Positions 13,701-43,041 are shown, numbered from the stretch's first letter. The stretch is DNA of 64,000 nucleotides from a virus (IMGVR_UViG_3300041964_000083:62001-126000), one strand, 5' to 3'. Notes: generated from the letters alone by a model not told the origin. Made by a program: numbers and translations.

Positions 13701-16190
13701 TTTAACCAATCAACCAAAATTGAACAAGATTCGGTACAAAAGCTAGAAAAAGCTCTTGCTGCGGGTGAAGGAAAGATTAAACAAGTAGCATCAGCAGCAA
13801 CCGCAGACGAGAAAGAGCGATTGGCAAAATCTACAGAAGCATTTGCTAAACATCAATCTGATAAAGAGTCTCTTGAGTTAGATCAAATCAACACATCTCA
13901 AGCGTCACAGAAGAAGCAATACGCAGAAACACAAAAGCAGCTAAGTTTAGCTCAAGAACAATACAGTAAGCTCACTAAAGAAGAAAAGGAACGTGCTAGC
14001 CCGCAACTTGAAAAAATTAATGCATTGCGATCGCAGGCAGCAGAACAGCGCACTACGATCGCTAAAGCTGAAACTGAACGGGAAGAAAAACTCAGAAGCA
14101 CAGCAACCGAAAAATCTAGCATCGCTCAACAAAAAGCGTTAGATGTTGCTAAGGCTGCGGAAAATGATCGCCTAAAGAACATTCAAGAGCTTGTAAACAA
14201 AGGTGTTCTAAGTCAAGCAGATGCGGATGAACAACGCGCCAACCTTACAGTTGGTAGCTTAAAAAACCAGCTAAGTGCCGAGCAAGCACACTTAGCCAAT
14301 ATGGTTGACATTGCTAAAAAATACCCCAAAACAGGGCTAGAAGGGCAAAAGCAAGAGGAAGAGATTCGCAAAGCTCGAATCAAGACTCAAGAAATCACAA
14401 CACAAATACTGGAACAAGAAAAAGCAGCGTATGAGGCACACATCGCATCGATTACCGCCGCACTAGACCGCGAAAGCAACTTGAGTCAAGCTAAAGATGA
14501 GCAACTTGTTCGAGATGGATTGGAGATTCAGGAAGGTGCTGATCGCAAGAAGGCTGATTCTACAGTTAACCGTTTACAGAAGTTACTAGCACTCGAAACC
14601 AAAGATAAAGATAAACGCGCTCAATTAGAACTACAGCTACAAGAAGCACTGTCGGCACAAGACGATGCGCGGGTAAAAGAAAAATTAAAACATATTGATA
14701 ATGTCAATACCCAAGAACTGGCAAGAGATGAAGAACTATATCGTACAGGCAAACTTAAGAAAGAACAGTACGAAATAGAAAAAGCTCAATCAACATTAAG
14801 TCGTTTAGAACAAGAGCTTGCTTTAGAACAAGACGATGTAAGTAAGCGAATTGCTCTAGAACTTCAGGTACAGCAAGCGCGTACCAGTTTGCAAGAGGCA
14901 CAGCTAAGTCAACGCAAAGCTCAAATTGAAAGTGAGAACCAAGAATACCAAAACCAATTAGAGCGACAGCTCGAACCTCTCAAAGCACAGCAGTCTGTAT
15001 TTGACCTCCTCAATAAAGCATTAGAGAACCGCAATAAACTTCTCAGTGCTAGCCAAGACTTAATGCGGGCAGGTGCTAATTACTTGACTGGGCAGCTAGA
15101 AGCTATCTCATCTGTAGAGACATCAGAATATCGCCGTAAGCAGCTAGCTCAAGGTATTGCGGCAATCAAATTGGATGCGGCTAAAAAAGAAGCTGAAATG
15201 ACCGCAGCTTCCCTTGAAGCAGAGCAACAGATGCAACGATTTGCCCTGATGAGAGAGCAAATTGAAAATAGAGTTGCACTAGCGCGTCAGGTTGGGGAAA
15301 CAGCTAAACTCCAAGGGCAAATTGCAGTAGCCGAAGCTGACCCCCGTACCAGCAAAGCCCAGAAAGATGCGTTGTATATCCAACTTGATGCCGCCAAACA
15401 ACAGCAAGCACAGCTAAAGGGTATTGGTGTTCTATTGGCACAACAAGCACCTGCTCAAGAAAAAGTATTTGCTTTGCAGAAGCGCTCTAAACAGCTAGAA
15501 GCTGAAGGAACGGTTACTCAAGCGCAAGCGGCATTGATTAATACGCTTGGACCCGGCTCTAAAGAGCGTGCCGCTCGTGCTTTCCAAGAGCAACAATCCC
15601 AAAAAGTGTTTGGAACGAGTTATCAAGATGTAAGATCTGGTTCTCGTGCGTTAGCGCGTGAAACAGTTGATCGGGAAATACCGGGCGCAAACTTAGGGAC
15701 AGGGGCTGGAATGTCGGGGTTTGCACCTTATTTAGAGGAAGTGAGTGGTTCTGTTGCAGCTATGGCTCAAGCTAATACAGATTTGGCAAGAACAATGGGA
15801 CCTGCGGCAACAGCAGGAGTTGGCTTAGTCGGTGCTGGTGCTGCATCGTTAAGACTTCCGGATGTAGTTGGAAAGATACCGGGGTTAGATGAAATTAATC
15901 GCGGTTCACAAGATGCGATCGCGCAATCACTTCAGGCTTATCAACAAGAAGGGTTAAAGCTACCCACAGGACTCGCAGGACAACAGTTACAACTACCTAA
16001 AGTTTCAACGGATGGAATGGCGAAAAGTAGTTCCACGTTTGAAAAAGCTGTTTCTCAGTTTGCCAAAGCGGTACAATCGAGTCAGCAAACGAAAAAAACT
16101 AGTAGCGGCAATAATGTAACACTCAACGTTAATCAGTCGCAGTCATCAGATATCGGTAACATCTTAACCCTTGCAAAACAACTAAGCTAA
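4725..16190 (+). CDS. Phage tail tape measure protein, giant, with 40 tandem repeats
   Basis: At 3821 residues this is very long for a tape measure protein. Residues 87-1567 are 40 tandem 37-residue repeats (L-T-Q-S-L-x-E-V-P-x-L-F ... A-L-Q-x-I-G). The region 1568-2100 is rich in Ser, Ala, Gly and Phe. A hydrophobic segment lies near 2634-2654, and about 2850-3600 is a Lys/Glu/Gln-rich coiled coil. Repetitive helical composition, great length and adjacency to structural genes fit the family, whose length sets tail length. At roughly 0.15 nm per residue the tail would be over 500 nm, which is an estimate. The start immediately follows the TAG of the preceding gene with no usable Shine-Dalgarno, suggesting coupled translation. 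No interruption occurs over 11.5 kb. Confidence 0.88.
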   Translation: MPATNNAVQIVISATDNASGVISNIQSSLSGLSKLVSQPLQTALLNLNRVTNSVSQDIVDKVGAIGKSFNQVFSNIASPVSFPLSGLTRSLDEIPGLFTSAFTRGSQAATIAIQDIGGVDTRDLNQSLGEVPKLFNSTFTRGAQAANNALKEIGGLDVGELNQSLAGVPQLFNSTFIRGSQAANSALQNIGGIDTGKLTQSLDRVPQLFNSTFIRSTQSAQNALKSIGSVNTSGLSQSLGEVPALFASAFNRSGQVANNALQNIGKLNTGELSQSLAEVPKLFNSTFTRSSQVAQNALRDIGGIETDGLTRSLNEIPTLFAATFTRSAQSAQKVIQSIGGVETNQITQSLAEVPGLFTSAFTRGTNAATNALQSMGELNTEGLTQSLDEVPQLFNSAFTRGSQAATTALGSINGIDTDKLDQSLSEVPSLFARVFNQSNQIAQNNLESIGGVDTREITQSLAEVPTLFTSAFSRGEQVAQNAFKGIGNINTGELKQSLNEIPSLFNSTFTRSAQLAQNKLKDFDGINTGKLTQSLSEVPQLFSSTFNRSSQVAQNALQNIGDVNTDGLAQSLGEVPRLFTSFFTRGTQTAQNALQNIGDIDASELTRSLDKIPSLFTTTFTRSSQVAKNALQNIGEIDTGKLIQSIDEVPSLLVSTFTRGSQAVNNALQNIDGIDTDKLTQSLSEVPALFTSTFNQGSRAATNALQAIGGIDTGGLTESLGEVPQLFNSAFTRGKQSANNAIQGIGELSTDKLNQSLEEIPRLFGTTFTRSRQVADNAFQNIDGINTGKLDQSLNQILKLFTSTFNQSSQAATNALQKIGGVDTDKLTQSINEVPQLLGSSFTRGSQAATTALQNIGKLDTGRLTQSLGEIPALFNSAFTRGGQVAQNALASVDGIDTSRLTQSLSGVPQLFNSAFDRSSQAATTALQNIGELNTSGLTQSLGEIPTLFNSAFTRGSQSAQNALQDIGGVVDTSELTQSLSEVPQIFNSTFARSSQVAQNAIQSIGEVDTGALSQSLGEIPSLFASTFNRSRQTASDALKDIGGVNTDELNQSLGKIPQLFNSAFSRGSQVATDSLQTVGELNTDELTRSLAEIPDLFNSTFTRSRQSAQTALQSIGGIDTGELSQSVNSIPPLFTSAFDKGSQAAENALQDIGGVDARKLTQSLEDVPGLFASTFNRSAQAAQNALQSIGELNTSGLTQSLSEVPVLFNLAFTRSSQAASNALQGIDKLDTKRLSQSLDEIPQLFTSTFTRGNQVAQDALQNIDGVNTDNLKQSLNEVPSLFTSVFNRSRSVATNTLRSIGGVDTSELTRSLSGIPQFFTSAFTRGVQIAQNTFQSIGELDTGELNQSLSEIPQLFNSAFTRGNQSATNALQNIGNVDTSGLTQSLTEVPQILNSAFTRGSQSANSALQDIGGVNTDELTQSLNEVPQLFSSTFNRGTQAATNALQNIGELNTSGLTQALGEVLTLFNSAFTRGSQAANSALQSIDDIDTGNLNRSLAEIPQLFTSTFNRGTQAARNALQSIDGVDTNQLGQSLSEVPQLFTSAFTRGGQAAQDTIASVFSDIPADVSTLFSDISNRAKTSVDSLFQGIAPDTGKLNAAIKPIGNAIPDSLKPGIASARQTFASFFQSIPNQVDDWLAALPTSLGNAVNSAVDSIALNFDGLTRSLTDGLSDAFGGAALGIGDIGAGLNPFAGLASGISGAATGLDKVGTSISSAITSGFTKANTQVDGFFTGITNRVPNLLSGLPQAILAQLDTSVKALTPDLSGIQASFGRISDAFAIGFEPGIAAAQEEVETFFREIAQNAPEWMRDLPQSITNTFDSAFNSINLGQASSNFLEFGENVFSVFDSIGDAINDTGNLIRNLDTIFQTTLGTSLGDLVKKQIEDLNDDMGKVFDDGQILIPLSTTLGELAKTGTPAGASFFSGFFGAFGEEFASFFPTFTSLISKGISSVTGLIPSLFGSISSLIPSTLKTAFSSVTATAGSAFTSISALIPTTFTSAFSSAAGSISTTISSAFSSVTTTAASIFTSISARIPSWLAGAPAAIIDTFDRAWFGVADSFETTFSSIDFAGNVGANLASIGTGADDYARVFDLLKNSVGGVTDAIGTVTQQAFFFTEGFSALQGLVQNGPYQLLVQQNVELQQQLLETQASLVATNKIMQSGQQIVDPTAAIQALNAPIRSAIAQLRQDSLELVGVTSKDLVGVFQVVAQQASGIGINIQEAQKLTVSFSAALGTMGVPLHQASQEITSILTSQIDQNSVVAKNLGLNNDLIQRLSTQGKLYDFLQQKLGAFREGNKLQSQTIEGITSNIQELVDTVGLAAGEQLIKPIVDNLNQVYSYLQNNFKTISDYATSLVGKLSTAGQYVAEAVGLVLNSIAGVLGATTNSLFDFLIIGAKGFKDAVATMLPIFQPFIDSLAILITVAGNLSEAIGELPFTQLFFQFKILTTGAGLLKESFSAFAGVTPILGEAMFLMGGRANGLVGTFTNLTQALGNSSAAMGLLAGKHMNDIPILAGLVQNKVTGMLGPFSAFGPVISGLVPQLSTGAIALVGLTKQFPVLGSTITSAAGMIPGLLSSTGALAGSKGFGALGASLTAASGNLSTFLSGTDLATFASEKLTEVTKQVRAEFIKTITTTGLVIAGLAALAIIVVEVTKRMQDGGAPIKQLAKDTQNTANLIRDTWDKTRATTSKKLFEDQQVPATDWIDTMILKTRELEKGTLQITDAMSAVQAVGAILAKGFDFVAKAVQSVVVLVYEGVQGIVAGAQLAFNVLKNPLDTKAIEASMQKLVSVGDNASDGLQETWSRSFGDIQTKGEKSMTDIGDALKSGGLQRGVKDMVDQVNSLIASGLQPGKLFEKELEPVSTAIENLKNKTGSVKDVRDAIATLPDSIPADRKREFLDLVNKEFPNGVAESGESTEAFQERLKNLSKQLGVTGSDASNIRLEEIREKLEGNIQSINQQIDALKRSGQGYSGNARELRSLEGQLKTAKDAFDKFNQSTKIEQDSVQKLEKALAAGEGKIKQVASAATADEKERLAKSTEAFAKHQSDKESLELDQINTSQASQKKQYAETQKQLSLAQEQYSKLTKEEKERASPQLEKINALRSQAAEQRTTIAKAETEREEKLRSTATEKSSIAQQKALDVAKAAENDRLKNIQELVNKGVLSQADADEQRANLTVGSLKNQLSAEQAHLANMVDIAKKYPKTGLEGQKQEEEIRKARIKTQEITTQILEQEKAAYEAHIASITAALDRESNLSQAKDEQLVRDGLEIQEGADRKKADSTVNRLQKLLALETKDKDKRAQLELQLQEALSAQDDARVKEKLKHIDNVNTQELARDEELYRTGKLKKEQYEIEKAQSTLSRLEQELALEQDDVSKRIALELQVQQARTSLQEAQLSQRKAQIESENQEYQNQLERQLEPLKAQQSVFDLLNKALENRNKLLSASQDLMRAGANYLTGQLEAISSVETSEYRRKQLAQGIAAIKLDAAKKEAEMTAASLEAEQQMQRFALMREQIENRVALARQVGETAKLQGQIAVAEADPRTSKAQKDALYIQLDAAKQQQAQLKGIGVLLAQQAPAQEKVFALQKRSKQLEAEGTVTQAQAALINTLGPGSKERAARAFQEQQSQKVFGTSYQDVRSGSRALARETVDREIPGANLGTGAGMSGFAPYLEEVSGSVAAMAQANTDLARTMGPAATAGVGLVGAGAASLRLPDVVGKIPGLDEINRGSQDAIAQSLQAYQQEGLKLPTGLAGQQLQLPKVSTDGMAKSSSTFEKAVSQFAKAVQSSQQTKKTSSGNNVTLNVNQSQSSDIGNILTLAKQLS
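4983..9425 (+). repeat. 40 tandem 111-bp units in the tape measure gene
   Basis: Forty consecutive units each encode 37 residues, except unit 24, which has one extra Val. The phase is fixed by L-x-Q-S-L at the start of each unit. The protein consensus is strong, but synonymous positions differ widely between units, so the array is old or selected against DNA identity. In five units (1, 7, 15, 28, 34) the TQSL codons read ACGCGATCGCT, creating a HIP1 site and changing Gln to Arg. Confidence 0.95.
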
Positions 16191-28625: not shown

Positions 28626-29015
28626 TCAATTTTTGAACCCGTACACGTAATATTCGTAACCGTTAGATAAGTTGCATCCACCCATAACGCAAATAAGTTT
28701 CAACTTGGGGTTATCAAAATACGCTCTCAAAAACGCTTCTGCGTATCGGGCTGTTCTTGGTGATGCGCCTGAATCCTTTGCTTTCTCGCTTGCCGCTTCT
28801 GCTTTCGTCCTATCCCATTGCCAGATGCGATCGCTATACTCCCATGTCAAACCATCTTCTTGATGACCATAAATAACTTGAGGCTTTTTCCAGATTTTTT
28901 GCTGATAACTTGGGTACTGAAGGCGTTGATCTGGGTCTAATGTTGGAATAATTGCTGGTAGCTGATATTCTTTGGCAATGCCATGCGCCATTTCAAACCA
29001 TTCTTCGTCCATCAT
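28626..29015 (-). CDS. Hypothetical protein
   Basis: This 129-residue protein starts with an acidic aromatic helix (MMDEEWFEMAHGIAKEYQLP), has a Trp/Tyr-rich middle and ends EYYVYGFKN. Its start overlaps the 3' end of the dnaN reading frame by 4 nt, so it is co-transcribed with it and is followed by the terminator near 28.5 kb. No family was recognised. Confidence 0.68.
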   Translation of the reverse strand: MMDEEWFEMAHGIAKEYQLPAIIPTLDPDQRLQYPSYQQKIWKKPQVIYGHQEDGLTWEYSDRIWQWDRTKAEAASEKAKDSGASPRTARYAEAFLRAYFDNPKLKLICVMGGCNLSNGYEYYVYGFKN

Positions 29016-30242
29016 CGCTTTATCCTTGCAATTTGTTGAGTAGACGCAAGTCCTAATAATGTACGGTGCGATCGCGTCTCCCCTTTAGTCTCTAATCTGT
29101 ACGGGCATATCAGGTAAGTCATCTTCAACTCACCTAGGGGTACGAGTATGACCGGAGTATCAGCGGTATTAATCAACATCTGAATCTCTGTAGTCGCAAG
29201 CGTCTTTAAGCCATCAATTAAGTATTTAACATTGAAGGCTATAAGTAAGTCATCACCTGATACCTGAATAGGCATTGACTCTTGTCCACTACCAACATCT
29301 TGAGCATCAACCGATAAAGTAAGCTGCTGGTTAATGCTGTCAATGCTGAACTTAACCGTATTGTTTTTCTGGTCAGCTAGTACGCCGATGCGCTCCACTG
29401 CACCAAGTAACTGCCGTCGATCAATTGTGACTTGCCGCTGGAACTGAACTGGAATCAACTGCCGATAGGCTGGGTATGTTCCTTCTAGTGTGCGACTCGT
29501 TAAGCGCTGCTCTCCCTCCTGAAAGACAAGCTGACCTTGCTCAAAATGAAGCATAACCGTATCTACTGGTTGCTTGGTGGCAATCATCCGTTCAAGCTCT
29601 TTTAGCGCTCTAGTGGGCACGGTGACTTGAAATGGCTCAACACTTTCTTGATTGTCTTCGCTCTGATTTTTTGTTTCTACAACGGCAAGGCGATGCCCAT
29701 CTGTGGCAGCAAACTCTAAGCCATCTTGCTGAACAGTTAAGTGAACACCAGTTAGTACCTGTTTGGTTTCATCGGGACTAGTGGCAAACAGCGTGCTACC
29801 CAACCCTTGCTTTAGCGCTTCAACGGGGTAGGCTAATTGCCGTCTCTGATTGCACCTGTGGAAGTGCTGGGAATTCATCAGCACTCATCCCGCGCATTTG
29901 ATAGCGCCCAGATGCTGAAGTTAGCGTGACGATATGGCTACCTTCAGCATCGCCTTCTCCTGATTTCTCAGATAACGTGATTTCCCCTTCAGATAGACGA
30001 GAAACAATATCACTAAGTAGTTTTGCCGGAATGGTTAGTTTTCCGCTCGTTTCTACCGTAGCGGCAAAACTGGTCTGAATGCCAAGACTCAGATCAAATG
30101 CGGTAAGCGTCACCTTCTGTGCTTCGGCATCAGCCACGAGCAGCACATTACCCAATATTGGGTGGGTAGGACGAGAGGGAACCGCTCGACTTACTAGAGA
30201 GAGGTTTGTGTTGAGTTCGCTTTGGATGCAGGTTAGTTTCAT
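29012..30242 (-). pseudogene. dnaN: DNA polymerase III beta clamp, split by a 1-nt frameshift
   Basis: The N-terminal frame (30254-29820; likely ATG 30242, MKLTCIQSELNTNLSLVSRA) carries clamp domain 1 with THPILGNVLL and ends SADEFPALPQ..ISLPR. The second frame (coding part from about 29829 to 29012) continues PVEALKQGL, LFATSPDETKQVLTGVHLTV, and ends with the conserved YLICPYRL near the C-terminus, followed by a 26-residue tail. At CCCC (29825-29828), dropping one C would join SLP to VEAL, giving about 409 residues. A programmed shift, a real mutation or a sequencing indel are all possible. An element-borne clamp would serve its own replication. A free domain 1 product of about 140 residues would not form a ring. 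Confidence 0.85.
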
Positions 30243-30277
30243 GGTTTTGTCCAATGTTGGTTGTTGTGTGCGATCGC

Positions 30278-33491: not shown

Positions 33492-33713
33492 ATGGCTGGA
33501 ATTTGCTCAAAACACCAACACCACGAGGTTGGATGCCCGCTTTGTGAGGCGTCACCAACAGATTTGTTCCCTGATTGGCACGAGAAGAAAGCTGCTGCTA
33601 TACTGGCTGGAACTCAGGTGTGTGCGTATTGTGGTTTTGAATCATACAAAACAACTTCATCTTGCCCAAAATGTCGGGCGCATTTTCCTGAAGATAAAAG
33701 TTTGCTGAATTAG
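33492..33713 (+). CDS. Small zinc-ribbon-like protein
   Basis: The start at 33492 (MAGICSKHQHHEVGCPLCEA) is preferred; the frame opens at 33405, but the extra residues look non-coding. The 73-residue product has Cys/His clusters (GC-P-L-C, CAYCGF and CPKCRA), which suggests two zinc-binding knuckles. Such small proteins often bind nucleic acid or partner proteins. It is convergent with the minus-strand gene at 33710 (4-nt overlap). Confidence 0.6.
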   Translation: MAGICSKHQHHEVGCPLCEASPTDLFPDWHEKKAAAILAGTQVCAYCGFESYKTTSSCPKCRAHFPEDKSLLN

Positions 33714-34498
33714 ATTTGGTGTGATCGCGTATCAATCCACTCCGGCGACACATCCGCAGATTCCTCAGTATCTAAGCAAACTCCGCCAAAGATGTTGTAG
33801 GAAATACCATTTTCCCAGTACACAGCAACGTGTTTGGGGTCTACTTCTGGTTTGCCAACGCTGTCAGTCTTGCGACGGAATCGGGTTACCCCTTCAAAAA
33901 CAGCGTTGAAGAGCAGCCGGACGATCGCGCCTCTATGTTTAGGTAAATCGTGCAAATCACTATGCCAGCGCCAGCAGAAGAACTCTTCTAAGCTTTCGTA
34001 GAGTATCAGTGCCTTTACCATATCGAAGTTTTCAATGTCGGGTGCTGTGCCGCGCTTTTTCTCACCAGGGTTGAAACTCTGCTTTTGGTAGCGGAAAATC
34101 CCAAACACATCAGCAAGCATATCCCGCATTTTCCACATAGTTGTTCGTCCAGAGGCAGCACCCGTCCAATGCTCTTTGAGGTAAGTGCAGATGGCTTGCT
34201 GTGTGATGTTGAAGCACTCAACGCCTTGTCGTGCGATCGCAGTGAGTCTATTGGTTACGTGGTGGCGTGTACCTTTCTTCTTCAGGCTTAGGGTATCCAT
34301 TGCGGCACGGTATAGGTAAGCGTTGAGTACGCCCATTGCCGTTAGCACCTGCTTCTTAGTCCAGTTGGCGACGATACCGAAGATGTCTTGTCGAATGCTA
34401 TGGAGTTGCGATCGCGTCGGTAAGGTTAAGCCAAACCCTGTGCGAACACTTGTACTCTGTTGATTTGCGGGAAATTGCATTATACTTTCCATATTCAC
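33710..34498 (-). CDS. Paralogue A of an unknown protein family with a structured upstream region
   Basis: This 262-residue protein is clearly related to the one at 41810-42745. Shared blocks are VLTAMGVLNAYLYRAA / ILTTMGLLNILIYRAA, YLKEHWTGAASGRTTMWK / YLKTYWKGANTGRTTLWK, and LPKHRGAIVRLLFNAVFEGV / LPEHKGAIISLVFNKFFAGV. Conserved basic residues and helices suggest a DNA-binding or replication role, but no known motif was recognised. The ATG at 34480 (MQFPANQQ) is an alternative start. Both paralogues have the same upstream arrangement of hairpin, inverted-repeat element and palindrome at matching distances, so the protein may act on that region. Confidence 0.75.
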   Translation of the reverse strand: MNMESIMQFPANQQSTSVRTGFGLTLPTRSQLHSIRQDIFGIVANWTKKQVLTAMGVLNAYLYRAAMDTLSLKKKGTRHHVTNRLTAIARQGVECFNITQQAICTYLKEHWTGAASGRTTMWKMRDMLADVFGIFRYQKQSFNPGEKKRGTAPDIENFDMVKALILYESLEEFFCWRWHSDLHDLPKHRGAIVRLLFNAVFEGVTRFRRKTDSVGKPEVDPKHVAVYWENGISYNIFGGVCLDTEESADVSPEWIDTRSHQI

Positions 34499-34521
34499 GG
34501 ATGGGAAACCGAGAATTTATT

Positions 34522-34558
34522 GAAAGCCGTCGAGGGGTAAGAATGCTCGGCGGCTTTC
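34522..34558. promoter_or_regulatory. Upstream hairpin of paralogue A
   Basis: GAAAGCCGTCGAG (34522-34534) and CTCGGCGGCTTTC (34546-34558) form a 13-bp stem with one G-T pair and an 11-nt loop. It starts 24 nt from the gene start. No T-tract follows on either strand, so a regulatory leader or protein site is more likely than a terminator. Confidence 0.65.
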
Positions 34559-34604
34559 GCTATTGGTTGAAATTATCGCACAAAACTCCGTCGAAAACCA
34601 AAGA

Positions 34605-34740
34605 TGAACGCTTAAGCCTCTTTATTAATTTTGAGTGAAGATTTTCTTCTTTCCAACGAAGTTTTGTCTTTCTAGCAGGGTTTGTCTTGTTAAAAAAAAT
34701 CAATTCAGACAAACTCCTCATCCCAAAGCTTAAGCGTTCA
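34605..34740. repeat. Inverted-repeat element A
   Basis: TGAACGCTTAAGC (34605-34617) is repeated inverted as GCTTAAGCGTTCA (34728-34740) around a 110-nt A/T-rich interior. It is equivalent to element B at 42842-43000. The left arm is 107 nt from the gene start in both. The 301-nt stretch 34499-34799 otherwise holds only the hairpin and palindrome copy 7; no gene is supported. Confidence 0.75.
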
Positions 34741-34771
34741 CACCTTGTTAAAATAAGCTTTCTGCAAAATT

Positions 34772-34790
34772 TGACATCGTTTCGTTGTCA
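34772..34790. repeat. Dispersed palindrome, copy 7
   Basis: TGACATCGTTTCGTTGTCA has one arm mismatch. It lies 31 nt beyond inverted-repeat element A and 9 nt past the stop of the minus-strand gene at 34800. Confidence 0.9.
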
Positions 34791-34799
34791 GCATTAATT

Positions 34800-35009
34800 T
34801 TAATCGTCTGCCATCTCATATCCTTTCAAGCTTCTAACAATGCGATAAATAACCCCACAATTTTCGTATTCAACATACTTGTTAGATAAGTTTTCAAGTA
34901 TTGCCCACCCTAATCGCTCTGTTCCCATAGTCCAATTAGGATTACTGACAACCGTCCACTGACTTTTATCAACCTGCCGACAAATTAAATATTGAATCGG
35001 TTTTTTCAT
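34800..35009 (-). CDS. Small hypothetical protein
   Basis: This 69-residue protein (MKKPIQYLICRQVDKSQWTV) has a strand-rich middle and a short basic C-terminal helix. It lies downstream of the integrase and the 35042 gene in the same direction, so it is probably the last member of that unit. Palindrome copy 7 follows its stop. Function unknown. Confidence 0.6.
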   Translation of the reverse strand: MKKPIQYLICRQVDKSQWTVVSNPNWTMGTERLGWAILENLSNKYVEYENCGVIYRIVRSLKGYEMADD

Positions 35010-35041
35010 ATTTCGTCAAACTAAATCAGAAGCGATCGCGT

Positions 35042-35296
35042 CTAATCGTCTCTCAAATTTCCATTCTCTAGGGCACGCTCAACAAGTAAGTCGGCTGCCT
35101 CTAAAATACTTGTACCAGTTGCCCAGCAGGGGTTGGCATTCAAAGAGCACCAGTCGGTTAAAGCTATTGCTAGAGCTTCTTCTAGTTCACCGCTTCGTTC
35201 TAACTCTCCCTCAAATTGCACTGGGGTACTAACACAAGTACAAATTAACTCAACACCCATATCTTTTAGTGTTATCAGCAATTCATCAGTGTCCAT
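35042..35296 (-). CDS. Small acidic hypothetical protein
   Basis: This 84-residue, strongly acidic protein (MDTDELLITLKDMGVELICT) is mainly helical. Its ATG directly follows the integrase TAG in the same frame (TAGATG), so translation is probably by termination-reinitiation; stop-codon readthrough would append it to the integrase. It may be a small regulator or partner of the recombinase, which is inference from position. Confidence 0.65.
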   Translation of the reverse strand: MDTDELLITLKDMGVELICTCVSTPVQFEGELERSGELEEALAIALTDWCSLNANPCWATGTSILEAADLLVERALENGNLRDD

Positions 35297-36262
35297 CTAA
35301 ATTAATCCTGAAACAATTTCCGACATCTCTCCCTGAGCATTCTTCCGATTGTCATCATAGATCAGTAAGGTGTCAGACTTACTATGGCGAGAGAGCTTCT
35401 GCACCCGCCTCACGTCTCCATTCGTCGCATCCAGTGCCGCTGTTAAGGTCGAGTGCCGGATGCGGTGAGGTGAGAATATCTTTTTAATACCAGCTTGAGT
35501 CGCAATTTCTCGAACAATCCGATACACACCATCACCCGTGAGAGGATGCCCGTAGTGGGCATTATTGAGTGCGATAAATAACGGGTCGCCTTCCTCCACC
35601 TCGCCTCGGCAATCCAACCATTCCTGAATTGCCACTACGGTTGTAGGTGGCAATTCAACCCGCTCCACCTGAGTCCCCCGACCTTTTCCTAAAATACTGA
35701 GCGTTCGTTTTCTCGCATCAAAATCCCCAACCTTTACCAGCGCCTCACTGCGCCGCAGAGCATTGGACCAGAATAATCGAAGCAGTGCATAATCTCGCTT
35801 CCCTTTCAACGTTGCGCGATCGCACACTTCAAGCATCGCCTTAAATTCATCAACGCTCACCCCAGAGGTATCCCGATACGTCCGGCATCGTTCACCCTTA
35901 ATTTCCTCAAGGGTAAATTTACATTTATCAAGTTTACGTGCATAAGCCGTCAACGACTTAATCGCTGCTAGCCGTCGATTAACCGTCGCCTCTTTCAACC
36001 CCTGCGCCAACAACTGAGCTTTATACTTCAGCACCACCTTAATCGCATCTGCCCGCGCCAACCCCAAAAACTGTCCAACAGCTTCTGGGGTTGGTTTGGT
36101 TTTAGTCAAGAACTCGAAGAAGTACCCCAAGTCTTTCTCATATGCACGACGGGTGTTACGCGATCGCTTATCAGCCAGCAAGTCACGAATTAAGTCATCA
36201 TCTTCAATGTGTTCAGCAAGCCAAGATGGTTGCTGAGTTGCGAGGTTACTCACGCTCAACAC
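35297..36262 (-). CDS. Tyrosine recombinase / integrase
   Basis: This 321-residue phage-integrase/XerC-D-type enzyme catalyses site-specific strand exchange. The N-terminal SAM-like core-binding domain spans about 20-115 (RNTRRAYEKDLGYFFEFL). The catalytic domain has Arg170 (NALRRSEAL), His266-x-x-Arg269 (PHRIRHSTLT), His293 (LSRHSKSDT) and the nucleophile Tyr302 (LLIYDDN). All expected residues are present, so it is probably active. It could integrate the element or resolve multimers. It overlaps the 36246 gene by 17 nt. No attachment site was recognised nearby. Confidence 0.92.
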   Translation of the reverse strand: MLSVSNLATQQPSWLAEHIEDDDLIRDLLADKRSRNTRRAYEKDLGYFFEFLTKTKPTPEAVGQFLGLARADAIKVVLKYKAQLLAQGLKEATVNRRLAAIKSLTAYARKLDKCKFTLEEIKGERCRTYRDTSGVSVDEFKAMLEVCDRATLKGKRDYALLRLFWSNALRRSEALVKVGDFDARKRTLSILGKGRGTQVERVELPPTTVVAIQEWLDCRGEVEEGDPLFIALNNAHYGHPLTGDGVYRIVREIATQAGIKKIFSPHRIRHSTLTAALDATNGDVRRVQKLSRHSKSDTLLIYDDNRKNAQGEMSEIVSGLI

Positions 36263-36638
36263 CTGGTGTCAATGAGTATGAGTATTGTTCACTTGATAAT
36301 GGTTCTGGATCTAGATAGATTTCAACACTATCTTTATCCATATCCTCTCCTAGTGTTAATGCCCAATCATTACCCAACGCGGCTACTTCAACGTTAATCC
36401 GCAATACATTAAATTCAGAAAAATAAGAAAGTAACCCTTTGTAAATCTTTGAACTACCATCGCGCCATGTTCGCTTCATGAGAATGGGTGTGTTAGCAGG
36501 GAGCGATCGCGCTTCGATAAAACTAAGCGATTGTTGAGTTATGCGGTTACTCAGCAATACATCGCTGTCAAGGGTATGTATAGTACACACACCCTTTTCA
36601 TCATGAATTAGCGATTCAAGCTGTTCTTGGGGCTGCAT
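36246..36638 (-). CDS. Hypothetical protein upstream of integrase
   Basis: This 130-residue acidic protein starts MQPQEQLESLIHDEKGVCTI, is strand-rich in the middle (LRINVEVAALGNDWALTLGE) and has a C-terminus rich in Asp, Glu and Pro. It overlaps the integrase start by 17 nt, so the two are probably translated together. No DNA-binding signature is obvious. An excisionase role is possible by position but not supported by motif. Confidence 0.62.
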   Translation of the reverse strand: MQPQEQLESLIHDEKGVCTIHTLDSDVLLSNRITQQSLSFIEARSLPANTPILMKRTWRDGSSKIYKGLLSYFSEFNVLRINVEVAALGNDWALTLGEDMDKDSVEIYLDPEPLSSEQYSYSLTPGVERE

Positions 36639-36755
36639 AAGAGCTTTTAGGCTATATAAATATCTGACTAGTATACCCTCAACTCATGATAATGAGCGTT
36701 TACAAGAGTTAGGTAGGGTTGGGTAGAATTTAAGAGTAGCGTTACGCGATCGCAC

Positions 36756-37004
36756 ATGAGCAAATGGTGGCTATTATCAGACGAAGACTTTTGCAGCATT
36801 GCAAAGAATCTTACCCAAGCAATTGAAGAATGCTGCGATGCCGATAAGAAAAGGTTGCTAGAAGATACGCGGCATACATTGGAAACGGGACTGCACGTTA
36901 CGGATGCCGTGCCGAGTGACTTCAAGAACAAAGAGCATCGATCAGCACCAGAGTACCCACCAGCAACACCAAAGCACCTTCGCACAAACAGTCGTGAATT
37001 ATGA
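36756..37004 (+). CDS. Small hypothetical protein
   Basis: This 82-residue helical protein has three Cys residues (MSKWWLLSDEDFCSIAKNLT, EECCDADKKRLLED). The ATG follows GCGATCGCACATGA (HIP1 at 36746-36753). It is first in a coupled three-gene plus-strand unit (36756-37668) with 4-nt overlaps. Function unknown. Confidence 0.65.
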   Translation: MSKWWLLSDEDFCSIAKNLTQAIEECCDADKKRLLEDTRHTLETGLHVTDAVPSDFKNKEHRSAPEYPPATPKHLRTNSREL

Positions 37005-37423
37005 GTAATCTACAGCAGTATTTTGAAGAACTCCTTTCATCATTGTTGACTCAAGAAGCCCATTTTCACAAACGCTTTGCCAATCCAAAAGCAACTGATA
37101 TCCTCAACAGCAAATATACACTAGCAAGATTTTGTACCTACCTCAGAAACTTGCAAGAATTAGAACCAGCGCAAGCCGCAAAATCACTCGTTGATAAAAT
37201 AAATTGTTCCCCTCAGTACTGGTATACAAGAGAGCAAGATGGTGCATTATTGCGGAAGGTTGAAACGCTTGAACCAATGATAGCTTGTGCAATGAGAGAC
37301 GCGATCACGCAAGTTGATTGGGTAGAGTTGTGGAACTCGCTACAACCACACATTGAACCATTTCTGATTAGGTATGAGTATGAAGGATTAGTAATTAGCA
37401 AAATACAAAATAATCGCACATGA
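37001..37423 (+). CDS. Hypothetical protein
   Basis: This 140-residue, largely helical protein (MSNLQQYFEELLSSLLTQEA) contains KRFANPKATDILNSK and a C-terminal segment with paired Trp (VDWVELWNSLQPH). ATGA overlaps join it to the genes on both sides. No family was recognised. Confidence 0.68.
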   Translation: MSNLQQYFEELLSSLLTQEAHFHKRFANPKATDILNSKYTLARFCTYLRNLQELEPAQAAKSLVDKINCSPQYWYTREQDGALLRKVETLEPMIACAMRDAITQVDWVELWNSLQPHIEPFLIRYEYEGLVISKIQNNRT

Positions 37424-37668
37424 CCTTATCAACAAGCTGCCCTCGCTGCTATGGAGAGTCAACGCTATTTCACAAAAGCCAGTACAAGGGCGACATCTTC
37501 AAGTGCAAATCTTGTTTGATTCCTCATCCAACAAAAGAGGAAAAGATACCGCTGTTGTGGTTTTGGGAGAGCGATCGCTTATGGGAAGGATTAGATCAAC
37601 CGGAAGGTGAAAATAAGCCGGAACTTGTCAAGGTAATCTTAGGAACCGAGCCAGAGAAAATTGTTTGA
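37420..37668 (+). CDS. Small zinc-ribbon-like protein
   Basis: This 82-residue protein has CPRC near the N-terminus (STSCPRCYGESTLFH) and CKSC further on (IFKCKSCLIPHP), a likely zinc ribbon. The start follows AATCGCACATGA, a degenerate HIP1 start context. Its TGA is part of palindrome copy 8. Function unknown. Confidence 0.65.
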   Translation: MTLSTSCPRCYGESTLFHKSQYKGDIFKCKSCLIPHPTKEEKIPLLWFWESDRLWEGLDQPEGENKPELVKVILGTEPEKIV

Positions 37669-37684
37669 CATCTAATCGTTGTCA
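37666..37684. repeat. Dispersed palindrome, copy 8
   Basis: TGACATCTAATCGTTGTCA has two arm mismatches. It supplies the TGA of the gene ending at 37668, at a convergent junction 9 nt before the end of the minus-strand gene at 37694. Confidence 0.85.
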
Positions 37685-37693
37685 GTTAAAAAT

Positions 37694-38056
37694 TTAGATT
37701 GCGATCGCGTATCCTTGTTCAGCTTGTGCAGCAAGTTCTTTGAGGCGTTCCCAGCAATAAGGGTCACGATTTATTGGTTTAATTTCAAATTTGGGAAATA
37801 GCTGATTAATCTGGTTCTCAGTTATGGATTCAGGTAACGCCATAAGAATTCGGGTAACTGTTGCCAAGAGAATAAGTGCAAATTCTCTATCCGCACCTGC
37901 ACAATAATCAAGCGTCACCCAATCTCTACCAACTAATCCTACCCTAACTCGAACTCCATACATAACTGGAAGAAAACCAATTTCCCAAATCTGGTTTTCA
38001 GACACCCAACGACCTGCGGGGAAGTTTTGGTTTGATTCTACTTTGGTGAAGTTCAT
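37694..38056 (-). CDS. Hypothetical protein
   Basis: This 120-residue protein (MNFTKVESNQNFPAGRWVSE) has a hydrophobic helix near the middle (LILLATVTRILMALPESI) and a basic C-terminal part. It follows the Phage_ABA_S-like gene by 5 nt on the same strand, so it belongs to the 40740-37694 group. Function unknown. Confidence 0.65.
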   Translation of the reverse strand: MNFTKVESNQNFPAGRWVSENQIWEIGFLPVMYGVRVRVGLVGRDWVTLDYCAGADREFALILLATVTRILMALPESITENQINQLFPKFEIKPINRDPYCWERLKELAAQAEQGYAIAI

Positions 38057-38061
38057 TTTGC

Positions 38062-38544
38062 TTATGCAACCTCATCATCCAACACCCAATACTTAAAGGT
38101 TACACCCAATGCTGGTGTAGGCTTTACCGCAATACCAACAGCTAGCAAACTCGCTACACAAATTGCCAGTGTAGGTGTATCAGCCGTAGCATCACAAAAC
38201 CCCATGTGACAGTGCCAAGCACGGATAGGGTGTTTAAGCCATCCTTTTTCAAGCGTAAATTCATGATTTGGGTACATCTTTTCTGCTACAGCCCAAGCCA
38301 AAGCCATAGAGCGACTTGGATTCCAAGATGTACCACGCAATCCAATACTATCTACTTGATAGAGCGCCCAACCATTACATTCTTTTGGCTCGAATATCTC
38401 GTAGATTAGGATTTCCCCTTCTTCGGGAACGGTTTCATCCCAATCGATTACTCGCCAACCCATCACCTTCTCGGCAACTAATCGATCTAAAGCGTTGTAA
38501 GAGTCAACTGACAACGTTTCGATGTCATTACGGTTTCTTCTCAT
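38062..38544 (-). CDS. Phage ABA-sandwich-like protein
   Basis: This 160-residue protein resembles the Phage_ABA_S family found in many phages: ALDRLVAEKVMGWRVIDWDE near the N-terminus, WNPSRSMALAWAVAEKMYPN in the middle, and ATADTPTLAICVASLLAVGI near the C-terminus. The family's function is unknown. Palindrome copy 9 lies inside codons 6-12 of the annotated frame. A TTG within the palindrome could be the true start, so the first 11 residues are uncertain. The start overlaps the stop of the gene at 38541. Confidence 0.75.
   Translation of the reverse strand: MRRNRNDIETLSVDSYNALDRLVAEKVMGWRVIDWDETVPEEGEILIYEIFEPKECNGWALYQVDSIGLRGTSWNPSRSMALAWAVAEKMYPNHEFTLEKGWLKHPIRAWHCHMGFCDATADTPTLAICVASLLAVGIAVKPTPALGVTFKYWVLDDEVA
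38509..38527. repeat. Dispersed palindrome, copy 9 (in or at the start of a CDS)
   Basis: TGACAACGTTTCGATGTCA has one arm mismatch. It lies just past the stop of the minus-strand gene at 38541, as the general placement rule predicts, but within the annotated 5' codons of the ABA-sandwich gene. It is the only copy inside an annotated coding frame. Confidence 0.85.
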
Positions 38545-38990
38545 GATTTGCCTTCAATGCGTCGTTGTTCTTGCTCTATCATGCTTAGAAATTTCTCTCG
38601 AACTTCCCATGCTCGCTGGAGTTTCGGAACATCAGCTGAATTTGCTTCTTTAGCTTGGGATAGTGCGATCGCGTATGCATGACGTTCTAGATAAATCTGG
38701 TGCAGCGATATCTCCGTAGAGATGATCGCAATTGGTAACTTTTTCAGGTCACTTGTCATGTACACAAATGGCTGACCCTTCACCTCGACATAACAATCAC
38801 CCAATGGGTTAACCAGCATAACGATGCCGCGCTCTCCGGTTGGTAACTCCGCGCAGCTACCTTGACTGATTTTTTGTTCTTTCTCAACTTTGACCAGCTT
38901 TTCGAGTTTTACGGGTTCGATGCGGTTTTCTACTTCGGTGTTGGGAACCAAATCCGGAAATAGAGATGGTTGGATTGGTTGGTTGTTCAT
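38541..38990 (-). CDS. Hypothetical protein
   Basis: This 149-residue, largely helical charged protein (MNNQPIQPSLFPDLVPNTEV ... VKVEKEQKISQGSCAELPTG) contains a strand-rich segment (YVEVKGQPFVYMTSDLKKL). The N-terminal QPSLF may be a peptide-binding motif, possibly clamp-binding. Its ATG overlaps the upstream stop by 4 nt. Function unknown. Confidence 0.66.
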   Translation of the reverse strand: MNNQPIQPSLFPDLVPNTEVENRIEPVKLEKLVKVEKEQKISQGSCAELPTGERGIVMLVNPLGDCYVEVKGQPFVYMTSDLKKLPIAIISTEISLHQIYLERHAYAIALSQAKEANSADVPKLQRAWEVREKFLSMIEQEQRRIEGKS

Positions 38991-39547
38991 ACGCGATCGC
39001 CTCCTCTACGAGTTTCCCTTAACTGCTGAAACTCTTCAATTGTCGATTCAACATCAAACAGACTATCAGCAGGTTTGCCACTTGACTCTTTAACCTTCTC
39101 AAAAAAGTCTTTTAGAAATTCATCGCTTTCCATTGTTTCTGCCGCCCTTAAGATATCTAGCGCCTGCCCTCGCCATGCCGTAAAACGACTAGGATTCTCC
39201 TCCCTAAACTTCCTAAATTCTAAGAGTAGCGCACCAGCAATTTCCAGCTCCACGCCTATAACACGAGTCATCCATTCAATAAGTAGGCTATCAGTTTCAG
39301 CTGCAATCGCGCACTGCATTATCCCTAGGGCAAACTCGAAAGCTTCGGTGGGTGTGAATTCTGTCCTGTTTTTGTCCCAAGCCACATCAACCATTGGCTT
39401 TTTGTCGCGACTATTTACCCGTGAGTGAACATAAATTTCACCAGCACTGTATTCAGTCAATACCCCAATTTTCTTTTTCTCAGATGGAGGTAAGCGCTTG
39501 AGTTCCGCAAACGTTGTTTTCCTGGCGGTTTTACCAAATCCTTTCAT
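38987..39547 (-). CDS. Hypothetical protein with N-terminal KGFG motif
   Basis: This 186-residue protein (MKGFGKTARKTTFAELKRLP) has a basic N-terminus followed by a mixed body (VDVAWDKNRTEFTPTEAFEF) and an acidic helical C-terminus. The KGFG start also appears in the products at 41217 and 47785. It overlaps both neighbours by 1-4 nt. Function unknown. Confidence 0.68.
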   Translation of the reverse strand: MKGFGKTARKTTFAELKRLPPSEKKKIGVLTEYSAGEIYVHSRVNSRDKKPMVDVAWDKNRTEFTPTEAFEFALGIMQCAIAAETDSLLIEWMTRVIGVELEIAGALLLEFRKFREENPSRFTAWRGQALDILRAAETMESDEFLKDFFEKVKESSGKPADSLFDVESTIEEFQQLRETRRGGDRV

Positions 39548-40740
39548 CAGTTATCTATAATCTCCAATCCTGTCTCTCTTGCAACTTGCTGGGTAAATGA
39601 TTCCCAGTTCTCACCGCCATACTTTAAACGGGTGCGTTGAACGCTACTGATAGCATTATCAATCGCTTCAACGACTAAATCATCCCAAGGCGTATCGAGG
39701 TTCGTTGTAGATGCGCCCGTACCAAATAGCGCATCGTCACCGCAGTCATAAGAATTCTCGCCCTTTCCTGGCATGGGAATCCCACCCACAATTTCAAGCC
39801 CAACATCTTTTCGGGTTCGCTTGAGGAAAGGGAAACGCGATCGCGTCCATGTTCTGATTTCTAGCTTGGCATTGGCTTTGTAGATTCGGTTATCGAAATG
39901 AATATCAACAGGTCGTTCGCCCTCAACTTGTGTAGTGCAACGCTCCCGTCCAAGTAGTAAATCGGTTGGATGAATAACGATTCGTCGCCAATCATTATTC
40001 CTCCAGCAGTCAACTTCCGCAAATAGATAAATCCAAATAATGCCGTGATGAATTCTAAAGCTGAGTTCTCGTTCGTCTTCAGATAACCAGCTTACCCAAT
40101 GGTGAGGCAGTTTTTCAATGGATAGAAAAACACTAAATAGAAGTAACCCAACATGGAAAGTTACTACATTCTCAATCCCGCCCACATTAATACTGAGAGC
40201 TAAACTATCCCATTGTGGAATAGTCCAGCTGCCATGCAATGCCCACACATCTTGCGCAGGTTCATTTTTGGAATTGAGTTTCCAATAAGTGAGGGTTCGA
40301 CTTCCTGCAATCCATGCTCTACCTCTATCATCTCGATTATTGTCTACAGACCAGAAAGTGTAATGTAGCTTCCATTTGAGAAACAAATGCCAATTAATTC
40401 GCGCTAAACCGTTAACTAACCCGATGATGGGGTTATCTAATAGTCGATAAAATTCATCCGCGCAAGGCTCAATTAGCGTCAACATATCCATGTAGTTGTC
40501 AGCTAGCCAGTTTCTTTCAGTGTCACTAGCAGCACGCCTAAACAACGTTGATATGTATTCACCCAACTTAGCTAAATTAAAATCTGGGAAACTTAGTATT
40601 TCCTGAACAAATACGCGATCGCACCCGTTCTCTACCATGTAAGCCTCTATCCATTTGAGTTCGCGCCACTCGTCTCCATGCACGTTAGCAATTAGTTCCC
40701 AGTCCCGCATTAGCATAAGTGCCACTCTTCCTGATAACAA
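39547..40740 (-). CDS. Hypothetical protein, 397 residues
   Basis: A Trp-rich protein (about 20 Trp) with a hydrophobic stretch near residues 195-215 (ENVVTFHVGLLLFSVFLSIE) that may be buried or membrane-associated. Other recognisable stretches are SRTLTYWKLNSKNEPAQDVW and WIYLFAEVDCWRNNDWRRIV. No catalytic motif was seen. It leads the minus-strand group 40740-37694. It looks like a full-length conserved protein, but the family was not recognised. Confidence 0.7.
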   Translation of the reverse strand: MLSGRVALMLMRDWELIANVHGDEWRELKWIEAYMVENGCDRVFVQEILSFPDFNLAKLGEYISTLFRRAASDTERNWLADNYMDMLTLIEPCADEFYRLLDNPIIGLVNGLARINWHLFLKWKLHYTFWSVDNNRDDRGRAWIAGSRTLTYWKLNSKNEPAQDVWALHGSWTIPQWDSLALSINVGGIENVVTFHVGLLLFSVFLSIEKLPHHWVSWLSEDERELSFRIHHGIIWIYLFAEVDCWRNNDWRRIVIHPTDLLLGRERCTTQVEGERPVDIHFDNRIYKANAKLEIRTWTRSRFPFLKRTRKDVGLEIVGGIPMPGKGENSYDCGDDALFGTGASTTNLDTPWDDLVVEAIDNAISSVQRTRLKYGGENWESFTQQVARETGLEIIDN

Positions 40741-40786
40741 TAGTGATAGAACCTTTAGGTAAGCCTCACACTAAATCTACCTCAAT

Positions 40787-40984
40787 ATGCCTTGGTTTGT
40801 TATTGTTCAGTCTGCTACAGAAAAACCAGACCATCTGACTGTTTGGACTCGATTTCCCGTAGGAACAGAACGATACGCTTATGTGGGTAGCGTATCTCAC
40901 GAAGATTTTGCAGAATTAAAGGAACAACACCGAGTAGTTGTCGCAAAGTGGCTAAAAAAGTACGTACTGCAACCAAAACAGTAA
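40787..40984 (+). CDS. Small hypothetical protein
   Basis: This 65-residue protein (MPWFVIVQSATEKPDHLTVW) has a strand-rich core and a C-terminal helix (EDFAELKEQHRVVVAKWLKK). It is divergent from the gene at 40740 and overlaps the HNH gene by 37 nt. Function unknown; the coupling suggests co-expression with the nuclease. Confidence 0.62.
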   Translation: MPWFVIVQSATEKPDHLTVWTRFPVGTERYAYVGSVSHEDFAELKEQHRVVVAKWLKKYVLQPKQ

Positions 40985-41220
40985 AAGTGAAGGTAAAGCG
41001 TAAACCAATTCCTCCGGGTATTCGTTATGACGCACTCTCTAAAGCTAATTTTCGCTGCCAGTCTTGCGGTGTGCTATCTCGAAATGCACGGCTGGAAATC
41101 GATCACAAAATACCCGTGGCGAAAGGTGGGACTAATGCGATCGCGAACCTACAAGTTTTATGCGTTGCCTGTAATCGCGGGAAAGGTGCAAAGCTCAAGC
41201 GCAAGAGAAAACAGATATGA
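40948..41220 (+). CDS. HNH endonuclease
   Basis: This 90-residue protein (GTG start) has a Lys-rich N-terminus, then C-x2-C (FRCQSCG), the HNH core LEIDHKIPVAKGGTNAIANL, and C-x2-C (VLCVACNRGKG), the full zinc-HNH signature. It could be a homing or packaging-associated nuclease; it is not near the terminase genes. It overlaps both neighbours (37 and 4 nt) in a three-gene unit. Confidence 0.88.
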   Translation: MAKKVRTATKTVKVKVKRKPIPPGIRYDALSKANFRCQSCGVLSRNARLEIDHKIPVAKGGTNAIANLQVLCVACNRGKGAKLKRKRKQI

Positions 41221-41549
41221 AAAAGAATAAGGGTTTTGGTACTCCACAGGAGAAATGTCAACCTTTGCTACTTTTGGTAGGTGATGGCGTTTCACCAGAT
41301 GTTTTGGCAAAAGATCCAAACATTCAAAAAACTTACCCTGGTATCACCGCAAAGGAATTCATATGGATAAAAGCAACCAGAATGGAAGAGTTTGGGTCTT
41401 TTCCTAAAACAATAGAATTACAAACTGACGACGGAAAGATTCAACGTATTTACAAAATACCAAAAGACACAGCAACGCAACTCAAGAAAACAAGACGAGT
41501 TTATATCGAATCTGACATAAACTGGAGTAAGTTTGACGGCTTATCCTAG
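41217..41549 (+). CDS. Hypothetical protein with N-terminal KGFG motif
   Basis: This 110-residue protein (MKKNKGFGTPQEKCQPLLLL) is followed by a compact alpha/beta region (VGDGVSPDVLAKDPNIQKTY) and strand-rich C-terminal half. It shares the KGFG N-terminal signature with the products at 38987 and 47785. Coupled by a 4-nt overlap to the HNH gene. Function unknown. Confidence 0.65.
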   Translation: MKKNKGFGTPQEKCQPLLLLVGDGVSPDVLAKDPNIQKTYPGITAKEFIWIKATRMEEFGSFPKTIELQTDDGKIQRIYKIPKDTATQLKKTRRVYIESDINWSKFDGLS

Positions 41550-41569
41550 AGCTACATTTGAATGTGCGA

Positions 41570-41803
41570 TTATTCTTGCGATCGCGTGTTAACCACAGCG
41601 GCTTGACCCCTCTCCCCTATCTGCAAACCAAGTCGAGAGAGATAGTTATCGCCATAATCAACTCTCCATGCGTCCGATGGTGAAGTGGCTTCTACTTTGA
41701 CAACTACTCCGGTATCCCCGTCTGGGTGTCTAATCGTGTCGCCTTCATGGATTGGTTTTTCTGCGAAGTCACTCCACGGTGCTTTTTCAGGTTGTTTAGT
41801 CAT
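41570..41803 (-). CDS. Small hypothetical protein, possible SH3-like fold
   Basis: This 77-residue protein (MTKQPEKAPWSDFAEKPIHE) contains GDTIRHPDGDTGVVVKVEAT and WRVDYGDNYLSRLG, a strand pattern like small SH3-like or KOW-like barrels. It lies 6 nt after paralogue B (41810) on the same strand, so it may be expressed with it. Its last residues overlap a HIP1 site. Confidence 0.62.
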   Translation of the reverse strand: MTKQPEKAPWSDFAEKPIHEGDTIRHPDGDTGVVVKVEATSPSDAWRVDYGDNYLSRLGLQIGERGQAAVVNTRSQE

Positions 41804-41809
41804 GCGTTT

Positions 41810-42745
41810 TTAATATGGAAGTTCGTTCTCAGGGAACGGTGTGTCAACTTGAAGACTGGGTTCAGCTTCGTGTCGAGTGAATCGTTGTCGCCACAATTCA
41901 TGAGCTTTCTTTGCGCTCATGACACACCCATCTTCACAAACAATTAAAACAGCTAATGGTAATCCTCCATCTTTTAAAATGTACTCGCAATCATGCTCAA
42001 AGGTAAAGTTACGGGGTTTTACGTACTGGTTAGACTCAACCTGTGATGCTCTATCTAGTACTTCTTCGCGAGGGTCGGGCAGAGCAAGTTCTTTGCGACG
42101 GTAGCGAACAACGCCCGCAAAGAACTTGTTAAATACAAGAGAGATAATCGCACCCTTATGCTCTGGTAATCCATCAAACCCATCCTTCTCTTCGCCGTAA
42201 TGCTGACGCAGCAGATTCTCTAGGTGTTCGTAGAGCAGAAGTGCTTTGGCAAAATTAAAGTTTTGAATAACTGTTGCTTGCCCCCATTGACCCGCTTTGA
42301 ACTTACGCTCTTCACAGGTGAATAAGTTAAAGGTATCCGAAAGCATTTTCTTGGTTTTCCAAAGCGTCGTGCGTCCGGTGTTGGCTCCTTTCCAATAAGT
42401 TTTGAGGTATAGTGCAACCGTTTGCATCCCACACCGGAACTTTCTAACACCACGGGATAGAGCTTGTCCAATATTCTCGACAACTCGGTGGAAGCCTGAT
42501 TGTTTATAGGTTTTGGTTCTAAATGCTTTCTTGACTTGCACCAACACCTTCATCTCTCTTGCAGCGCGATAGATGAGGATGTTGAGAAGTCCCATCGTGG
42601 TTAAAATCTTTTCTTTACTCCATACCCTCGTGGCTGTGGCGATGTTGCCAGAGGTAATGGCAGTAAATTCAGTGACGCAATCGGTTATCTGCTGGGCAGT
42701 TAGGGGTTTTGGAGCGAAGCCTTTGGGAAATGTAGGGATAACCAT
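41810..42745 (-). CDS. Paralogue B of an unknown protein family with a structured upstream region
   Basis: This 311-residue protein is related to the one at 33710-34498 along most of its length. It is longer by a basic block (KAFRTKTYKQSGFHRVVENI) and a C-terminal extension (LRQHYGEEKDG region; end HELWRQRFTRHEAEPSLQVD). The shared cores include GRTTLWKTKKMLSDTFNLF and FAKALLLYEHLENLL. Upstream are a hairpin (42780-42809), inverted-repeat element B and palindrome copy 10. Function unknown; a DNA-binding, replication or regulatory role is an inference from the paired upstream architecture. Confidence 0.75.
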   Translation of the reverse strand: MVIPTFPKGFAPKPLTAQQITDCVTEFTAITSGNIATATRVWSKEKILTTMGLLNILIYRAAREMKVLVQVKKAFRTKTYKQSGFHRVVENIGQALSRGVRKFRCGMQTVALYLKTYWKGANTGRTTLWKTKKMLSDTFNLFTCEERKFKAGQWGQATVIQNFNFAKALLLYEHLENLLRQHYGEEKDGFDGLPEHKGAIISLVFNKFFAGVVRYRRKELALPDPREEVLDRASQVESNQYVKPRNFTFEHDCEYILKDGGLPLAVLIVCEDGCVMSAKKAHELWRQRFTRHEAEPSLQVDTPFPENELPY

Positions 42746-42779
42746 GTTACGATGGGGATGCTTTTTTGATAAATTGGTA

Positions 42780-42809
42780 AGCCGCTCGTTGTTGAAGCAA
42801 CTGGCGGCT
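42780..42809. promoter_or_regulatory. Upstream hairpin of paralogue B
   Basis: AGCCGC (42780-42785) pairs with GCGGCT (42804-42809), with inner GTTG/CAAC pairing, 34 nt from the gene start. On the plus strand it is followed by ATTTTTTTG, so it could also terminate plus-strand transcripts. It corresponds in position to the hairpin at 34522-34558. Confidence 0.6.
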
Positions 42810-42841
42810 ATTTTTTTGTATTATGCCACGGAAAGCTAGTT

Positions 42842-43000
42842 AAACGCACCGTGAACGTATAAGCATTTTTGTTAATCTTGTAAGTCTATTTGTTAACCCA
42901 AAGTGGTAGGAAGGGATCAATGGACTAGAGCGAACAAGCAAAAGTGAAAAATAAAACTCTTTAACTTTAAGACTGATGCTTATACGTTCACGGTGCGTTT
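42842..43000. repeat. Inverted-repeat element B
   Basis: A perfect 25-bp inverted repeat (left arm 42842-42866, right arm 42976-43000) surrounds a 109-nt A/T-rich interior. The inner core TGAACG..TAAGC is shared with element A. The core begins 107 nt from the start of paralogue B, exactly as at paralogue A. No target-site duplication is evident. The rest of the 368-nt gap 42746-43113 holds a hairpin, palindrome copy 10 and the operator-like repeat at 43069; no gene is supported. Confidence 0.85.
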
Positions 43001-43022
43001 TGTGTAAAGATATGTAACAAGC

Positions 43023-43041
43023 TGACAACGAATCGTTGTCA
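43023..43041. repeat. Dispersed palindrome, copy 10
   Basis: TGACAACGAATCGTTGTCA is perfect; symmetry extends to 12 bp per arm (43019-43045). It lies 32 nt beyond the TTCA of element B, matching the spacing at element A, and upstream of the nuclease-like gene at 43114. Confidence 0.93.

Follow-up and report, generated by a model that had tools for sequence, protein, structure and literature searches.

A duplicated phage module in which a predicted winged-helix protein gene lies beside a co-varying inverted repeat, a possible autoregulatory element

Two related genes in a single virus each carry a long-spaced inverted repeat (IR) upstream, with other elements in the same arrangement, and the question that this raises is what such a layout might do for the gene beside it. 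The genes lie in a window of 64,000 nucleotides, which covers bases 62001-126000 in a virus record 153,952 bases long, and positions below are those of the window unless another record is named. On its sequence the record is that of a tailed phage, marked by head genes, by genes for DNA polymerase III alpha of bacterial type and DnaB helicase that the phage carries (L003:15313-18756, L003:13255-14637), and by a major capsid protein with 50% identity to its counterpart in Aphanizomenon phage CL131. The host is probably a filamentous cyanobacterium. To our knowledge, genome-scale regulation in phages of such hosts is poorly known.

Both genes are read from the minus strand. The gene of module A (33710-34498) encodes a protein of 262 aa and that of module B (41810-42745) one of 311 aa. 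They had been proposed to be paralogues in a preliminary description of the window, and comparison of the proteins bears this out, with 39% identity across 186 aa (E=1e-40). The same description had not recognised the protein family. Both proteins match the profile phrog_34986, which is listed as of function unknown, protein A with an E value of 4.3e-15 over residues 23-209 and protein B with 6.5e-8 over residues 40-221. Searches of Pfam, NCBIfam, PADLOC and PDB sequences returned nothing convincing, and no Pfam helix-turn-helix (HTH) match was found. A structure model built from 14 sequences has moderate confidence overall (pLDDT 65.8), with most core blocks at about 80-90. Its core, with helices at 78-91, 100-110 and 118-130 and strands at 93-97 and 154-158, has the predicted order H-E-H-H-E-E, as in a winged helix, and so the phrog_34986 core reads as a predicted winged helix. 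In the structure prediction, which had been suggested as a check, the order of elements fits, and a Foldseek search of the model against PDB gave no match at E<0.001. Against BFVD the sole match below 0.001 was an unnamed entry of 293 aa, the same length as CL131 gp052. Within the predicted recognition helix, proteins A and B have a GRTTxWK segment in common, and CL131-type proteins have a common TxxxYR segment in its place.

Upstream of each gene a hairpin and then the long-spaced IR had been described, and both elements were located in that order at A and at B. The 5'-UTR hairpin spans 34522-34558 in module A (GAAAGCCG..CGGCTTTC, minus strand) and 42780-42809 in module B (AGCCGC..GCGGCT, minus strand). 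Beyond it lies an extended -10 element with a weak -35, at 34572-34580 in A (TGCGATAAT, minus strand) and at 42820-42828 in B (TGGCATAAT, minus strand). These promoters were assigned by eye, that of A being absent from the promoter scan list and the scan giving none for B; all promoters and transcription starts discussed here are predictions.

The IR follows, and its arm core, TGAACG..TAAGC, is the same in both modules. In module A the promoter-proximal core occupies 34605-34617 (TGAACGCTTAAGC), with its centre at about -46 from the predicted transcription start, and its distal partner 34728-34740. In module B the cores (TGAACGTATAAGC) are at 42852-42864 and 42978-42990, within a proximal arm of 25 nt (42842-42866) that is the perfect complement of the distal arm (42976-43000). 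This stem of 25 perfect pairs extends to 34 nt at 88% and is longer than first reported. As described earlier, 107 nt separate the proximal core from the start codon in both modules, and the repeats span 136 and 139 nt. The proximal core is centred at about -45/-46 from the predicted transcription start in A and B, where it adjoins the weak -35, and the spacers are A+T-rich.

The motif is restricted to the modules. There is no other exact occurrence of TGAACGNNTAAGC in the 154-kb record, and a scan of the 340 nt before each of 141 ORFs gave scores of at least 13 only for modules A and B and for ORF 43114, which has B's upstream region in common. A scan of the whole record for IRs found four others scoring 13-14.5, none of which is an upstream match of the 141-ORF scan. 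The arm core occurs at no second place in the record, so that no regulon is visible through it, and a role for the arm motif as a regulon site elsewhere in the record was rejected. The preliminary description had also counted a 19-bp palindrome as a third part of each module (34772-34790 near A, 43023-43041 near B). This element, roughly TTGACAACGNNNCGTTGTCAA, has about 28 copies across the 154-kb record, including window copies at 23171, 28470, 32674, 33274, 37667, 47502, 56880 and 59319, and its first TGA is often the stop codon of the preceding gene. Since it is dispersed in this way and absent from 318 kb of relatives, it is judged to lie outside the module, and is a dispersed repeat of this virus.

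Relatives of the module provide a broader test of its layout. One named phage relative was found, CL131 (MG209611.1), which has two copies of the gene, gp018 and gp052; a scan of IMG/VR with gp052 gave 25 loci, and later scans added two contigs (27 in total). All records other than the present one and CL131 hold one copy each, and most are fragments. The CL131 genes belong to the same protein family and have an IR, a promoter and a 5'-UTR hairpin upstream; they differ in protein identity (∼25%), in their arm core, in a consensus-like -35 and in having no 19-bp palindrome. The main text of the CL131 genome paper (PMC6293099) has no terms for the gene pair or for inverted repeats. A homologue from Scytonema hofmannii is named in the annotation of CL131, and two scans of genome contigs, in which cyanobacterial chromosomes were covered shallowly, gave no confirmed match.

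When the sequence before the gene was inspected in each relative separately, the order of IR, sigma-70-like promoter, hairpin and gene proved to be kept in all of them but one, L014. Their predicted promoters consist of TTGACA or similar, 16-18 nt, and TAGAAT/TATAAT or similar, some falling below the scan threshold and being assigned by eye. Consensus promoters stand downstream of the IR in CL131 gp052, L015, L019, L024 and L033. At L033 the IR is flanked by a 12/12 divergent promoter and by the gene promoter, and at CL131 gp018 it likewise lies between two divergent promoters. In the exception, L014, what looks like a TnpB-type element interrupts the -10, and the IR is therefore displaced. 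Here, 275 nt within L014:1-373, 99.6% identical to L038:5966-6240, meet the module within the -10 of its promoter; the L038 stretch looks like one end of a TnpB-type insertion element. A TnpB guide beside that element end would, we infer, target the module in uninterrupted relatives.

Wherever the upstream region is uninterrupted, no relative was found that keeps the gene and lacks the architecture, and the paired site beside the gene's own promoter is conserved in all such relatives. The spacing that had been described as preserved is exact only between A and B; among relatives the order is constant and the distances vary. The arms are spaced by ∼83-139 nt with no helical phasing, and the length of the arms is near constant while that of the loop is free. 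CL131-type arms have a core of their own, TACAnnATC (or TACAnnAKC), in 11/11 arm pairs, so that the arm cores, this one and the TGAACG..TAAGC of A and B, track the protein groups. The genes next to the module vary by lineage and include a terminase, a RadD-like helicase, a DnaG zinc finger and, in L019, Csf2-/Csf3-like and PAPS-reductase genes. Because the neighbours differ among lineages, the module seems to travel as a self-standing unit and not as part of one pathway. In the L019 viral contig (L019:4926-8301), the Csf2- and Csf3-like type IV CRISPR genes and the PAPS-reductase (cysH-like) gene lie directly downstream on the same strand.

The pairing of the arms was analysed for co-variation in 11 distinct arm pairs. 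Across them 89% of cells pair, and half of the stem pairs (12/24) have changed on both sides. The co-variation score was 0.428, compared with 0.165 when shuffled and at most 0.16 for slid partners. The flanks outside the conserved core pair only with their own partner, at 35/49 positions compared with a mean of 17.7 under permutation, and the true pairing ranks first among the 5040 permutations; this flank pairing is found without sequence conservation. Judged by these comparisons, the IR is under constraint. The order kept in relatives, as well as the co-varying stem, lends strong support to the earlier proposal that an architecture preserved while its sequence diverges implies function. As the layout is kept despite changed letters, it is probably the gene's own control switch. 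In itself, the co-variation is compatible both with base pairing in a stem and with a pair of symmetric protein sites.

Several models may be considered for how the switch could work. Our leading one, which we hold tentatively and place ahead of a role in RNA, is that the IR acts at the DNA level, as an autoregulatory element to which the encoded protein binds. It is the likeliest because the IR precedes the predicted promoter and, in two lineages, has divergent promoters on its two sides. Also in its favour are the position of the proximal core near -45 beside a weak -35 in A and B, and the way in which arm core and predicted recognition helix both track the protein group. Three functions had been offered at the outset, namely a replication origin with its initiator, a partition site and a self-regulated switch; the last of these fits best, and no partition gene was seen near the modules. 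Each module would then be a self-contained transcription unit of a cyanophage-specific, predicted winged-helix DNA-binding protein. Upstream of its own promoter the protein would bind both inverted arms, probably forming a bridge between them, and by this binding it may set its own synthesis, in whichever sense. The divergent promoter across the IR, where there is one, may also be set by the protein, and modules A and B, having the same arm core, would be expected to cross-regulate. The 5'-UTR hairpin probably stabilizes the mRNA or tunes translation.

Autoregulated winged-helix regulators of phages and plasmids are among the closest parallels to such an operator. In common with them the modules have a predicted winged helix and paired sites at the gene's own promoter, with a proximal site near -45 (A, B) and divergent promoters in some lineages. 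The modules differ from them in having arms ∼80-140 nt apart at unphased, variable spacing and in pairing beyond the conserved core, and neither their protein sequence nor its structure matches a named regulator. Some findings count against an operator. There is no second genomic site with the arm core, and the spacing is unphased, unlike that of a rigid DNA loop; the paired, unconserved outer flanks are explained less simply by two protein sites than by base pairing. The moderate pLDDT of the protein model, with its lack of a PDB match at E<0.001, and the absence of the A and B promoters from the promoter scan also weigh on this side. A family listed only as of unknown function becomes a defined module with a directly testable cis element, and an architecture that survives strong divergence and occurs in duplicate in two different phages makes a good model of regulator-site co-change.

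A possible but less likely model is that the IR forms the stem of a structured RNA, either a leader or a small RNA, transcribed across the region and recognized in its folded form by the protein or by a host factor. The core would then be the contact, and the flanks would need only to pair, which is in keeping with the strong co-variation that includes flanks lacking sequence conservation, and with a free loop length beside a near-constant arm length. Folding z-scores of -5.2 (A) and -11 (B) point the same way. So does the stem of L024-type loci, which is far more stable on the coding strand than on its complement (-22.6 and -8.7 kcal/mol) because of its G-U pairs. However, the predicted promoters lie 3' of the IR, so that the predicted mRNA is without it, and the search upstream of the IR gave no consistent promoter. 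Over all arms, G-U cells number 19 and A-C cells 12, counts that show no clear strand preference and leave the strand undecided, and no Rfam family was found at or above gathering score. Furthermore, template switching within imperfect inverted repeats could keep arms alike. Long-spaced complementary arms upstream of a gene are also a feature of retron-type non-coding RNAs with outer inverted repeats; the modules differ from these in that their gene is not a reverse transcriptase, their arms lie outside the predicted transcript, and their match to Rfam msr is no better than chance (E 1.7). A more speculative and rather doubtful form of the RNA model sees in the co-varying stem a structured phage RNA of a new class. 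It would work with the adjacent winged-helix-like protein, the two forming a unit of RNA and protein that is limited to cyanophages and serves control or counter-defence. If the stem were to prove to be RNA, a new phage RNA class would be added.

The modules might instead be origins of replication with their initiator, the protein binding arms around an A+T-rich spacer and starting replication, which we regard as improbable. As in rep/ori modules with operator-like inverted repeats, the gene and its adjacent cis element are always together and the motif is nowhere else. The A+T-rich spacers would suit this function, the winged helix is common among replication initiators, and in one lineage (L015) a gene with a DnaG-type zinc finger adjoins the module. 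The modules depart from rep/ori systems in that iterons or other tandem binding-site repeats are absent from the window, the promoter stands between the IR and the gene, and in neither this record (G000) nor CL131 does the GC skew, which follows gene orientation, turn at the modules. There are two copies in each of two phages, the family is absent from the plasmid collection, and profile comparison with initiators, namely the phage's own phrog_11233 replication protein and CL131 gp132 and gp081, was negative. The 33-nt repeats of CL131, which have two to three mismatches to the arm core, were considered as iterons and rejected as a coding repeat, since the unit consists of whole codons that on one strand encode an acidic 11-aa repeat, ADDTEEDDFVV. 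Tandem copies of a nearly identical unit are present at each end of the linear record of CL131 (L011:1-113, L013:12649-12793); with the repeat coding on one strand, the record ends probably cut one gene.

Very improbable is an invertible switch, in which a recombinase flips the segment between the arms. Nothing supports either this or an origin. Inverted repeats ∼100 nt apart do lie upstream of a gene, and a candidate enzyme, an XerC/D-like tyrosine recombinase (35297-36262), is encoded between modules A and B, but the spacer orientation is identical in all related sets, the gene promoter lies outside the segment, and the closest relatives of the recombinase are those of cyanobacterial plasmids. 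These relatives, in the plasmid collection, reach ∼57% identity, and the likeness is possibly a phage-plasmid trait.

Equally hard to credit is a MITE-like mobile element or independent repeat placed upstream by chance: the terminal inverted repeats of 20-27 nt, A+T-rich core, total of 80-160 nt and TA that starts the conserved core are reminiscent of one, but the arm cores track the protein groups, and when every contig of IMG/VR was scanned with a pattern for the CL131-type arm pair, true IRs occurred only at modules, other matches sharing only the searched motif, so that with no copies at unrelated sites in the record or in these scans the mobile element was rejected.

Elsewhere in the window, a single reading frame of 3,821 aa (4725-16190) is probably, by its length, the tail tape measure protein, and a beta-clamp-like reading frame near 29-30 kb (29012-30254) appears by eye to be split across two frames.
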